64,000 bases of DNA from Oasisia sp. SBJ-2009 (Eukaryota > Annelida > Polychaeta > Sabellida > Siboglinidae): assembly GCA_964017155.1 (NCBI GenBank), contig OZ024862.1, positions 31,693,751 to 31,757,750 on the forward strand, written 5' to 3'. The number at the start of each line of letters is the position of its first letter. Position 1 is the first letter of the stretch. The notes under the pieces are model-generated. The model worked only from the letters and a program-made list of their open reading frames with translations. It was not told the DNA's origin and searched no databases. This document shows, in pieces, positions 7,802 through 60,500 of this stretch. The translations under genes and the position numbers were made by a program.

Positions 7802-10800
7802 CTAGAAACAACATAAACATCTCGATGAACTAAACATTAAATATGCAACACATGGAAGGCAGTGGTTCTGACTGGAGGGTACATTTCACAAAATTTAGGA
7901 ACACCCCCCCAAAAAAAGGAACATGTATTGGGGTGATGGTATAAATTTTCAATCATTTGCATTTTAGAGACAAATAATTTACTGCCAGTTTTGGATTAGC
8001 ACATAAATAAATAATATCCGACAGGTAAATTCCTCAACAATTTGGATTTAACCAGATCGCCACCAAAAGCTTCATGCTTCAGTTGGGATGTGGACCAGGA
8101 AACTTTGACCTGTTGAGAGTCCAACCATTTTCCACCATCTATTTTTAGCATTAGTTAAATGGGTCAATGTTGGGCATTAAATGACACTGATATCACTGTA
8201 GAAATTAAAATATTGCTGTTCAACTTGACACTTCACTGCTATAAAGTCTGAACTATTATGACCCATCTGGTTGGCCGTATCATTCTCCTCTGTGGCCAGT
8301 ATAACAGCACATTCTCATGTCTTCAACAAGATTATTCTAGTAAAGTACTACCACAATATTGAATGGTTTCAAATAGTTATTTTACTAACACTTAAATTGG
8401 CAGACCCAAACAAGTGTCTTTTGTTTCTATTTCAGACATTAAGGATAGGCAAAAAGCAATACAAATATGTATGTGGGACTATGGGTAAGCTCTGTTAGTC
8501 ACGCCTGGTAACTCGCTCACCGTGCCATGACGTCTGCACTTGTTCTTCTGGTCATCGCATCCGGCAACGAGGAAACATCCGTCTGAAACCACAGTTTAGA
8601 GACTAAGCGTCTGAAACCACACAGTTTAGAGACTAAGCGTCTGAAACCACACAGTTTAGAGACTAAGCGTCTGAAACCACACAGTTTAGAGACTAAGCAA
8701 AGTTAACCTTTTCTATTCTGAAAATCTGAATGACTTACTAAAATAAATTATTGTTCTGTGATTCAAATACGACTGCAACTCATGGTGACACCTAGTGCCT
8801 GTGCGGGGTCACCAAAGGACGTCATTGATACTGGACCTATGATTTAGCACCGTGCAGTATGACAAGCTTTCCGATTGTATTTGGACAAATTAAATATAAG
8901 TTGAAATGTCTGAACAAAAATCAAACATTTACATTGAGTAGATACGAGCTAGTCAAAGCAAATGGAGCCTAAGCGTAATGGTGGCACCCATTAGTTAAAC
9001 AAATATACCACGGCTCTGTACTCAGCCAACCTGGTCGTAAGTCGTCTAAATGATATAAAATTATGTTTGGGCAATGGTTGTACAGGCGTTTCAAAGGGGG
9101 GGGGCCCTTTAAATATCACATTTATAAATCACTGTTGTGAGGGATAAATTGCATGTTGATCACACTAAATTGGTGGTTGCACTTCTTGCTGACACAGTAA
9201 TGTTTACATGGCAGATGTACAATATGCACGGAGAAAAATACCAAACAAGCAGTGAATTTACCCACCATATCATGTACGAGTCGCAGACAACCGTAGCAGA
9301 GACCCGACTCAATGTCCATCAGCATTCCACAGCTGTAAGCAGAGACAACATTGAACCTTCGGGTCCCATCTGAGGTGTTTCTAGTTTCAGGCAGCACTTC
9401 CGACACCCATGCTGGTGCTTACATTTCCCACAAAACTGAGTTGGAATGTTGGTCACTACCATGGACGTTACAGATGTTGGATGGAACTGACGGATGTAAC
9501 TATACGAGACATTATGATCAACATAGATGGGGATGTAGGGTCTATATATAAGTGTGTGTATGTATGTACAGCTGTATTTATTATATATGTGTGTATATAT
9601 ATATTATATGCCCAAATGAGTGATAAGTCGTGATTTGCCATTTGGCGTGAGTGCCATCTAAAGCCAGATGGGATGATTGTGGTGAATTTTAGGTGTGTAT
9701 GAAAAATAAATTTATAGCATCTGTTTTAACACTTCCAGCCATCCCACACTATTTATACAAAATAAAATGTGTATTTTAACGCCATCTAATGTTAACCCTC
9801 TTGATTAACTAGTACAAAATGCAAAACTTTAACGGCAGTTTTCTCCAGTTTTACTTTTTGACCCCTGCCATACCTAATGTGACATAACTTCACCAGTAGT
9901 AGAGTCATAATTTTTGAAACACTGTATATCTCCTTTTATCAAATATGTAAAACAAGTGTGTCAACATATTTCCTACTTATCACTCATTTGGTCAGCAGGT
10001 CACAATTACACACTATATACATCCATACATAGCTTGATATAATTGGTTTTATGTTACATGTAGACAAAAATTATTACTTAAACATACCATTACTATACTA
10101 GTCACTTGTTAATTTATATTGAATCATCCACGATTTCAATCAAACAACAGCTTTTGCCAGTGTCACATAAAAAGGCAATCAGACGATAAATTACTTGTTT
10201 CAGACATCTGTCTGGTCAGTGCCACTGTATACTGTTTCAGCATTGAGCACAGCCACGTGTAAGTTGACTAGTACAGACGTGTCATAAATCACCCCAAAAA
10301 CATAGAGATATACTGTCATCTTGATGCACCCGGTGGCCGTCGCGTCGCCTGACGTCCGACCATTGGTTGCCGCCGTTAATGTGACGTCTACTGACAACCG
10401 TCGAGTCAGCGATACTGGGCGCGTGATTTAGCACCGTGATATATCTCCAGCTTCCTGATTCCTGCGTCTCTAACGAATCATACTATTTCGATCTATCTTC
10501 GGAAACACGATCGTAATAAATTGTATCTGCGTTGTAAATTGCTTAGTTCTGGCCACATCAGTTTCTTCAGTCTGTCTACTTGTGCAGTCGTCTCCGTTGG
10601 CAGACAGGCAGTGGTAAATGTCTTCTCTCTCAAGCACTGTCAGGTCAACTGACCAGTCCTCACACATCATGGTCACTAAATGTTAAACTGAATATTGGGC
10701 CACACAACAGCTGTGTGAATGAAGTGTTTCGTGTAGTGCTCAAAGTACAGATGGACTGTACACAACAACGGACAGAGAACCTCAGTAAAACTGTCACTTA

Positions 10801-57500: not shown

Positions 57501-60500
57501 ATGCCTTGTTCTCTTGTGTGAGGTGAGTGATGCCTTGTTCTCTTGCGAGGTGAGTGATGCCTTGTTCTCTTGCGAGGTGAGTGATGCCTTGTTCTCTTGT
57601 GTGAGGTGAGTGATGCCTTGTTCTCTTGCGAGGTGAGTGATGCCTTGTTCTCTTGTGTGAGGTGAGTGATGCCTTGTTCTCATGTGTGAGGTGAGTGATG
57701 CCTTGTTCTCTTGTGTGAGGTGAGTGATGCCTTGTTATCTTGTGTGAGGTGAGTGATGCCTTGTTCTCTTGTGTGAGGCGAGTGATGCCTTGTTATCTTG
57801 TGTGAGGTGAGTGATGCCTTGTTCTCTTGTGTGAGGTGAGTGATGCCTTGTTCTCTTGTGTGAGGCGAGTGATGCCTTGTTATCTTGTGTGAGGCGAGTG
57901 ATGCCTTGTTCTCTTGTGTGAGGTGAGTGATGCCTTGTTCTCTTGTGTGAGGCGAGTGATGCCTTGTTATCTTGTGTGAGGTGAGTGATGCCTTGTTCTC
58001 TTGTGTGAGGCGAGTGATGCCTTGTTCTCTTGTGTGAGGTGAGTGATGCCTGACTAAGAAAACAGGCAGTATATTTATATTAGCAGCATGTATGATATGA
58101 TCTATTCATTTTCTAGAATAACATTCTGTCATACTGTTATGCATTTATTTCATGGAACAAAGAAACTATTGATAAGTTATGTTTTGATTGTCTTCAATAT
58201 TAGCCCCTAGTGGTGTGTAGCAATCCCCACAGTTACAGTATTTGTTTGTTGTTTTTGCGTTAGAAGCTATTGTGGGTATGATTACAATTTTGTACATGTA
58301 TCTGACATTAAGTTCATTTCAATATTTATATGAGATTCCAACTATAGTCATGCTTACAACTTTAGAATACAAGATATTACCATTAATATTCCATTTTCAA
58401 TGTGTTTTTAGTATGTATAATCTGAAAATAATTTACTATCATAATTTATTCCACATTTTACATCTGATGATTTTATATTTATACTAGATCATGTCTACAA
58501 CTATTATTTATCAATGTTTTAAAGAACGGATCTATTGTATGCGATTGCTCTTATTTATTTATTTACTTACTTTAATTAATTTAAAGTAGTATATTTTATC
58601 AAAATTGTATGGTGCATTTGAGTATATTGTCATGTGAAATTACTTGTACAACGATCCAACGTTACAATGCATTCCAATGTTTTATTGTAACTACAATGAA
58701 AACACGTGGCAATAAAGCTGATCTTATCTTATAATTTGTCATTTACAACATGATTGTTTGTTATTTACGTCATAATTATTTGTATTTTCCGAAACATTTC
58801 GTGATCAAATACCCAGATAGTACTAGTTTAAATATGCAAAATTATGCTTCGATTAATCAGTTAGTACATTTCTGTAATTATGTTGGACCAGACCTTTCTA
58901 AGAACATACTTTGATATATTACAATTGCTCCTAAAGTATCAAAAGAAGAAAATTATCAAACAAACAAGCAAAGTAATGCACAAATCCACACATATATGCA
59001 TGCATGCGCGCACACACACATGCACACACGCACATATACACACACACAGTTATAACAATATTATGGCTGAAAAACAATTACCGGGTATATTACAGTTACA
59101 TTACAGCTACATACGTAGAGCGCAGTGGCTCAGAGGTAGAGCTTCGGACTCTCGACTACGAGAACCCGGGTTCGAATCCTGGCTGTGGCGTTAAAACCTT
59201 GGGCAAGTTTTTTCACTCTACATTGCTCCAGTTCACTCAGCTGAATTAAATGAGTACCTGGCTATAGACAGTGGTGGATATGTGTACGAGCAGCCTTCGC
59301 GCATTAATTGTAGCATGTAGCTGGATGCTTCCCAGAGAAGCCGAGATGGTGTCTGAGTGAACAGGTCTGTCAGGGAAGTAAAGTGTAAAGCGCTTTGAAC
59401 GGTTCTGAGGATTGGATATTGCGCTATATAAGAACTGCCTTTACTTTACTTTACTTTACATTAGCAAGAGTAATTATTTACAAAAACTCCCCCAGCGCAA
59501 ATGTAGTCAGTTGTTTCTGACTGTTTCTCCCTGCCCAGGTGTCCCTAGGGAAGGAGAGGGAATTGCTAGCGGCGGACTACAATGCGGACAAACTTCCTCC
59601 CGGTGTGAACAGTGTCAAAGGCATGGGCAAGGTTGCCCCTGACCCACAGCAAACACACGTTATGTAAGTACCATATTTACTTATTGTGTATTGCTGAAAA
59701 AAACCTTCAGAATATCTCACAGGAGTACTACCAAAAATCATGAAATATAAACAGTAATATGGGGTTCTCCACAAGTTTGGTTCTCGATAAGCCACACTCT
59801 TGTCATGTGTGAGTTTGTTTCTGGGGATGTCTTTTTGTTGTGTTGCTTTCTGTCATTCTAACAAGTACAGAAGTCGTATATATACAGTTTACTAGATGTC
59901 AGATTAGTTGCGTTGGCCAACTAGATGGCGAAGGGTGTGTGTTTGTGTGAAAGCTGATGGTTGTTAAATAAGAAAGATGAATTTCAGCGAATTTCAAGAC
60001 TGGGGGTTTGTTACATTCTGAACGTTTTAGGGATGATTTATTCATTGCAATTTAACAGCAGTGTCTTCAGCTATACAATGAGTACATCAATTAACCTTTT
60101 TGTACTGACGTCTTTGCCTTTGATCCTGGTTTCTAACGACTTAGGTGCAGTATAAATTATCTAAATATTATCAGGGCTCGAAATTCCTCAAGTTGTTTAC
60201 TTGTCCAGCGGAAATGTATAACCAGAAATTTCAATTGTGCCCTGAACAAGAGATTTCAACGCCTACTTCTCTGTGATTTTGTTAATTGTCCTGACTGTAA
60301 ACAGCACATTTTTTTCCAACAGACAATTAGTAGTTAGTACTTGCACTTTTTCTGTAATATCAAATCCAGTTGTGGCAGGCTGATGGACAAGCATATTTTT
60401 AGCCTTGAATTATTATTATTAAGGCAGCAGTAACTGAAATAAATATCTCGGCCAGTGCAAAAACTATTGCTACAAGTGATGTAGCTGTAACAATTGCTAC

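Follow-up and report, generated by a model that had tools for sequence, protein, structure and literature searches.

Minisatellite arrays at exon-intron junctions of two tubeworm genes resemble the 'mirages' of amphioxus

Minisatellite arrays were found at eight exon-intron junctions of two genes, CTU2 and PARP2, in a stretch of 64,000 nucleotides from Oasisia sp. SBJ-2009 (contig OZ024862.1, positions 31,693,751 to 31,757,750; this whole stretch is called the window, and coordinates are counted from its first base). These arrays were interpreted as probable mirage-type minisatellites in a siboglinid tubeworm, in which a junction was duplicated locally, the copies expanded on the intron side and splicing kept to the copy nearest the exon. 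Mirages were described in amphioxus; the accessible portion of PMC3087553 reports that intron-exon boundaries of globin genes have been duplicated in a minisatellite-like manner and refers to the earlier 'mirages' of Adh3. An earlier note on this DNA had placed arrays at CTU2 exons 5, 7, 10 and 14 and PARP2 exons 9, 13, 10 and 16, and all were present as placed. That note had also stated that no named system matched them, which is superseded, since the amphioxus mirages match closely (PMC3087553 and PMC3902484, in their accessible portions).

Arrays at the junctions of CTU2 and PARP2

Both gene models were rebuilt and extended using missing exons pointed out by Ridgeia and Lamellibrachia proteins, with exons numbered as in the earlier note. 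Together they comprised 29 introns and 58 junctions; every intron was GT-AG and both frames were open to the stop, while exon 1 of CTU2 and exon 1 of PARP2 were not found in the window. Exons 2-11 of CTU2 matched the Pfam CTU2 family (4.5e-8) and Ridgeia piscesae protein P0008 (94% identity over 38% of the query). Exons 5-18 of PARP2 matched the WGR, PARP_reg and PARP families of Pfam, a solved PARP2 in the PDB (4.9e-208, aligned along the WGR, regulatory and catalytic domains), R. piscesae P0031 (97% identity, whole query) and a protein of Lamellibrachia satsuma (85% identity over 96%). Ridgeia belongs to the Siboglinidae (Annelida) and, judged by these protein identities, the source DNA is that of a vestimentiferan tubeworm, probably closely related to Ridgeia but distinct from it; amphioxus, considered as a source because of its mirages, is rejected by the identities to Ridgeia and Lamellibrachia. 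A further CTU2 of a relative, P0001 (485 amino acids), lies on a contig of 1593 bases that is probably a transcript. On these sequence comparisons, all eight array-bearing junctions are backed by the reading frame, GT-AG borders and homologous proteins. The genes and their junction arrays were as follows:

7731..22358, minus strand: CTU2 (cytoplasmic tRNA 2-thiolation protein 2), exons 2-15 from 22358 down to 7731, 13 introns; identified by spliced frame, Pfam and Ridgeia piscesae protein
42242..60714, plus strand: PARP2, exons 2-18, 16 introns; identified by spliced frame, Pfam, PDB and Ridgeia protein
8580..8698, minus strand: 30-bp array, 4 copies, at CTU2 exon 14 acceptor (exon start 8582), covering the AG and 3 bases
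13081..13263, minus strand: 60-bp array, 3 copies, spanning CTU2 exon 10 acceptor (exon start 13128), copies in frame and open
16258..17100, minus strand: 59-bp array, 14.2 copies, spanning CTU2 exon 7 acceptor (exon start 16291), 34 bases into the exon
19712..20691, minus strand: 44-bp array leading to CTU2 exon 5 acceptor (exon start 19711)
50137..50271, plus strand: 24-bp array, 5.7 copies, crossing PARP2 exon 9 acceptor (exon start 50263) by 9 bases
50665..51718, plus strand: 25-bp array, 42.2 copies, spanning PARP2 exon 10 donor (exon end 50677), unit with 13 exonic bases
53676..54985, plus strand: 47-bp array, 27.9 copies, stopping 3 bases before PARP2 exon 13 (start 54989)
57476..58051, plus strand: 29-bp array, 20.1 copies, spanning PARP2 exon 16 donor (exon end 57493), unit with 18 exonic bases

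Two donors and six acceptors were therefore affected, so that, as in mirages, either the 5' or the 3' boundary may be involved. Neighbouring copies in the eight arrays were 85-97% alike over the whole unit. The array at CTU2 exon 5 consisted of a clean part (19877-20691, 18.5 copies) and diverged copies (19712-19876); as called, it ended 165 bases before the exon, and the diverged copies occupied this gap. At PARP2 exon 13, the repeated motif took in the acceptor AG, and no exon sequence was shown in the unit. The annotated CTU2 of Ridgeia, P0008, starts inside exon 7, a short way after the junction at which the window has its 59-bp array; an array at exon 7 of Ridgeia may have broken that gene model.

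Junction duplication was also evident without the repeat finder. When 40 bases around each of the 58 junctions were aligned to the remainder of their own intron, eight junctions scored 20-40 and the next highest scored 14. The same segments never scored above 18 against the other 28 introns, which served as controls, and none of 41 windows from exon interiors reached 20 (maximum 12). This test had been run earlier on 46 junctions of incomplete models and was repeated on the full set. The earlier proposal of separate local duplications was borne out by these scores. Introner-like elements, by comparison, are one element sequence repeated across many introns, and the eight segments did not behave in this way, matching their own introns but not others.

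When only the 20 exonic bases were aligned, five junctions were set apart from the rest (scores of 13-20 against null maxima of 8-12), and exon sequence was clear in the units at PARP2 donors 10 and 16 and CTU2 acceptors 5, 7 and 10. PARP2 acceptor 9 scored 9 against a null maximum of 10, despite an array that overlaps the exon by 9 bases; the score was likewise 9 against 10 for PARP2 acceptor 13, and CTU2 acceptor 14, where the array holds 3 exon bases, scored 6. Hence, the defining feature of a mirage, a unit that spans the exon-intron boundary, was clear in five of the eight arrays, and a sixth had about nine exonic bases; the arrays at PARP2 exon 13 and CTU2 exon 14 abut the AG and are not mirages in the strict sense. 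The earlier description, in which every unit contained the junction and seven cases were clear with CTU2 exon 10 in doubt, was correct for these five, among which CTU2 exon 10 now stands, and went too far for PARP2 exon 9, at the null level, and for the two that only reach the AG.

Weaker similarities exceeded their own null maximum at CTU2 donors 5 and 6 (14) and PARP2 donor 15 (13), while the score of PARP2 acceptor 14 (13) equalled its null maximum. These were left uncounted because one or two would be expected by chance (28 null comparisons x 50 junctions). Of these, the CTU2 donor 6 similarity may reflect a decayed pair:

17601..17653, minus strand: candidate decayed two-copy duplication across CTU2 exon 6 donor (17/20 bases, copies 33 bases apart)

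None of the 29 introns had both ends duplicated, and this bears on the origin of the introns themselves. If these introns had been made from an exonic AG|GT segment duplicated in tandem, as in the Rogers model or the mirage-to-intron model that the amphioxus globin paper puts forward for mirages (PMC3087553, accessible portion), both intron ends should relate to the flanking exon; intron gain of this kind is therefore very improbable here, although it has been proposed in print. Intron gain by tandem genomic duplication (PMC4974935), as far as its accessible portion describes it, resembles the tubeworm arrays in that tandem duplication supplies intron sequence, and differs in that both ends are duplicated in none of the tubeworm introns. 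Intron gain from tandem AG|GT segments was thus not supported, whereas the intron growth suggested in the earlier note was: of 29488 intronic bases, 6825 belonged to the 13 intronic arrays described below.

Assembly of long arrays is difficult and one assembled sequence was examined, so that an artefact of assembly or of the gene models was considered. However, units differed between arrays and copies varied within them, all 29 introns were GT-AG with frames open to the stop, and the proteins of relatives agreed with the models; an artefact would be hard to credit against these observations.

Placement of arrays relative to chance

The arrays compared with chance were intronic, with a period of at least 20 and a score of at least 100; 13 were retained from 83 repeat-finder rows after overlapping rows were merged. 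A second count added four lower-scoring intronic arrays of period at least 20 (starts 11974, 21233, 21339 and 58734). Shorter-period rows were left out, as was a 21-bp coding repeat in PARP2 exon 5; this in-frame repeat (45482-45532, plus strand) was seen in an aligned stretch that varies between relatives. Five of the 13 lay off junctions and were used as comparison arrays:

48939..50115, plus strand: 34-bp array, 34.6 copies, within PARP2 intron 8
51717..51858, plus strand: 38-bp array, 3.7 copies, PARP2 intron 10, ending 40 bases before exon 11 acceptor
17143..17380, minus strand: array of mixed 15/28/58-bp periodicity, CTU2 intron 6
56611..56889, plus strand: array of mixed 42/65/84-bp periodicity, PARP2 intron 15, 91 bases past the donor
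60466..60544, plus strand: 27-bp array, 2.9 copies, PARP2 intron 17, 16 bases before exon 18 acceptor

Each of the 13 arrays was placed at random in its own intron, with an overlap of at most 20, 40 or 60 bases with the exon, and contact with a junction was scored with a tolerance of 0, 5 or 10 bases; CTU2 exon 5 was excluded from the counts of contacts, since the array as called ends before the exon. Across the nine settings, 1.0-2.8 arrays were expected at a junction, while 6 (tolerance 0) or 7 were seen (p = 4e-5 to 0.017); because the window was picked for its visible pattern and two genes were sampled, these and the following p values are not genome-wide. With a tolerance of 5 bases, 7 of the 13 touched a junction against 1.2-2.6 expected (p = 4e-5 to 0.005), and with zero tolerance 6 of the 13 did so (worst p = 0.017). 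Free placement over all introns gave p = 2e-4 to 0.012, inclusion of the four weaker arrays gave 7 contacts among 17 (p = 2e-4 to 0.02), and each gene taken alone gave p of about 0.02.

Base composition was then relevant, as G-C content was 35.1% in introns outside arrays and 52.9% in exons. Ordinary minisatellites might have come to lie against exons by chance, their seeds favouring GC-richer DNA, for which exon edges are the places beside introns, with no special tie to splicing. With matching for GC, 1.57 of 13 seeds were expected to span a junction, compared with 0.94 under uniform seeding, and hence base composition accounts for part of the excess at junctions; the five or more arrays that lie elsewhere, and a sample of just two genes in a window chosen for its pattern, also favour such an explanation. 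Nevertheless, five or more junction-spanning seeds among 13 remained improbable (p = 0.0014 uniform, 0.009 GC-matched), as did six or more (p = 0.00013 uniform, 0.0012 GC-matched), and the placement of array edges was significant in all nine settings and near 0.02 for either gene singly. Chance is accordingly judged an unlikely explanation. The original impression that the arrays were far more frequent at junctions than chance would give was correct within the window, where its scope ends, with a share of the effect due to GC content.

Elsewhere in the window, minisatellites with units of 25, 28 and 46 bp were seen outside both gene models at 2445-2570, 4113-4969 and 6186-6681. The intergenic region between 22400 and 42200 held microsatellites, while arrays of period at least 20 were absent from its list, and therefore minisatellites seem to be concentrated in or near genes. 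Two reverse-transcriptase open reading frames (RVT_1) in opposite orientation occurred at 33986-36193 (plus strand) and 36918-40040 (minus strand), the second with an endonuclease domain; both are probably non-LTR (long terminal repeat) retrotransposons. An exon at 964-1461 (plus strand) encoded the final part of an AXH domain (Pfam, 4.9e-22) and probably terminates a third gene, which would be Ataxin-1-like.

Copied splice sites and the origin of the arrays

Many copies retained AG or GT signals, as in mirages. Copies that kept the unit's own splice motif were counted and scored with a simple weight matrix derived from the other junctions of the window. There were 109 such copies in the eight arrays, and 65 scored at least as high as the true site. 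In PARP2, the copies numbered 3 at acceptor 9 (1 scoring at or above the true site), 33 at donor 10 (32), 26 at acceptor 13 (1) and 14 at donor 16 (14); in CTU2, there were 18 at acceptor 5 (4), 10 at acceptor 7 (9), 2 at acceptor 10 (1) and 3 at acceptor 14 (3). If substituted for the true site, 107 of the 109 were computed to end the frame early and truncate the protein.

The two exceptions were the copies at CTU2 exon 10 (13081-13263), which leave the frame open and would make the protein 20 or 40 residues longer; by way of such an array, a mirage might become a coding repeat. Although its arrayed acceptors would keep the frame, the proteins P0008 and P0001 settle the case, which the earlier note had made depend on acceptor choice, for a single exonic copy. 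More generally, PARP2 of Ridgeia and Lamellibrachia had the exons joined with no repeat-derived residues, and none were present in CTU2 of relatives (P0001, and P0008 from its start inside exon 7). Together with the truncation predicted for almost all other copies, these proteins suggest that the exon-proximal copy would be the splice site in use in tubeworm RNA.

The abundance of intact motifs could be taken to mean that selection keeps or favours the arrays, multiple copies of a splice site strengthening exon recognition or buffering against site loss. Recent homogenisation would explain these motifs, given the similarity of adjacent copies, and the true site is no better than many of its copies; the large majority that would truncate the protein point to tolerance rather than benefit. 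Selection for arrays that preserve a working splice site, as first suggested, was thus not demonstrated and is considered quite improbable.

The favoured origin begins with tandem duplication of a segment of 24-60 bp that spanned or ended at an exon-intron junction. Extra copies would then have accumulated on the intron side, multiplied and homogenised by ordinary minisatellite processes (slippage and unequal exchange), so that expansion occurs into an intron that already exists; the exon would retain a single copy owing to selection on its coding sequence. The residues specified by the exonic bases of the PARP2 exon 10 unit (KTPLG) are conserved in Ridgeia and Lamellibrachia, which makes copying from exon to intron the simpler direction. 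The similarity between copies further suggests that growth or homogenisation was recent. In the resulting pre-mRNA, near-identical donors or acceptors would number from several up to about 40, of which the exon-proximal one would be used, and exon definition may help this choice: the arrays repeat mainly one strong type of site, and so most copies would have no close partner with which to form a false exon. In keeping with this, no site of the opposite type reached the lower quartile of real sites in the arrays at PARP2 exons 9, 10 and 16 and CTU2 exons 7 and 14.

Several observations weigh against this account. The donor arrays at PARP2 exons 10 and 16 contained 21 and 16 weak acceptor-like sites, none at the lower quartile. 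Opposite-type sites above the lower quartile numbered three in the CTU2 exon 10 array and one at CTU2 exon 5, while in the PARP2 exon 13 array (53676-54985, plus strand) seven donor-like sites equalled or exceeded the median of real donors. The step of exon definition is weakened by such sites, and in the PARP2 exon 13 array, which would be an exception to the rule of one site type, strong donor-like sites beside acceptor copies make small false exons conceivable. An intronic origin is possible for the arrays at PARP2 exons 9 and 13 and CTU2 exon 14, because exon sequence in their units is at the null level or not demonstrable. Five of the 13 arrays lay off junctions, and CTU2 exon 5 would be a sixth by the ends that the repeat finder gave. 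Finally, centrality within an array would mark a unit as the master copy from which the others derive; the exon-bound unit was the most central in three of the five junction arrays covered, out of eight, while among control arrays the first edge unit was most central in two of four and either edge in three of four, four more having too few units; in most arrays, the cutting of units was anchored on the first unit.

Junction duplication with intron-side expansion is retained as the probable origin of the arrays in the window. A much broader proposition is entertained only tentatively, and seems rather doubtful: that minisatellites are born preferentially at splice junctions throughout the genomes of vestimentiferan tubeworms, in convergence with lancelets, and provide a general route of intron growth. 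The cause would be some physical factor acting at these boundaries, such as DNA breaks linked to transcription or splicing, and most of the surplus sites would be concealed by exon definition.

Relation to known systems

The comparisons below refer to the accessible portions of the papers cited. Mirages in amphioxus have units of 10-72 or about 150 bp, with splice signals retained and length instability (PMC3087553), and were found further in TnC and PGBD5 (PMC3902484). The tubeworm arrays share with those of Adh3, BflGb6 and BflGb9 the tandem repetition of sequence spanning exon-intron boundaries, 5' and 3' alike, and the many copies with AG or GT signals; unit sizes (24-60 bp) are comparable with those cited for Adh3 (10-72 bp; PMC3087553). 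Regular splicing is reported to be undisturbed by the amphioxus mirages, and in tubeworms the proteins of relatives lack repeat residues. The differences are that the host is an annelid rather than a cephalochordate, that eight junctions in two genes are affected within one window, that arrays reach 42 copies, and that two arrays merely abut their junction. Haplotype, somatic and RT-PCR (reverse transcription PCR) evidence is reported for amphioxus, whereas the tubeworm arrays were examined in one sequence.

Human genes in segmental duplications contain internal tandem repeats with units of about 30 bp at exon-intron boundaries, and these are likewise minisatellites (PMC2812944). They are tied, however, to changes of exon and intron length and to new introns in recent paralogs, while all tubeworm copies but one appear intronic. 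Intronic minisatellites also occur in the metallothionein gene of an earthworm, another annelid, where duplicated copies of exon 4 are left out of the transcript; no junction-spanning arrays are described in what is accessible of that paper (PMC12783039). The accessible part of PMC3152781 holds nothing about splice sites, and that of the Ridgeia genome paper refers to a search for tandem repeats and to transposable elements, with nothing on arrays of this type. Among the literature matches listed, there were no junction-spanning arrays in annelids, and mirages of this kind appeared only in the amphioxus papers.

The tubeworm arrays are probably mirages in a new phylum, the novelty being the phylum and their density. 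The reported mirages examined were all from lancelets, and eight arrays in two annelid genes suggest convergence; the phenomenon is perhaps common in genomes rich in minisatellites. Such arrays provide natural test cases in which the spliceosome picks one among up to about 40 near-identical sites in a row, and they represent a concrete way in which introns lengthen.

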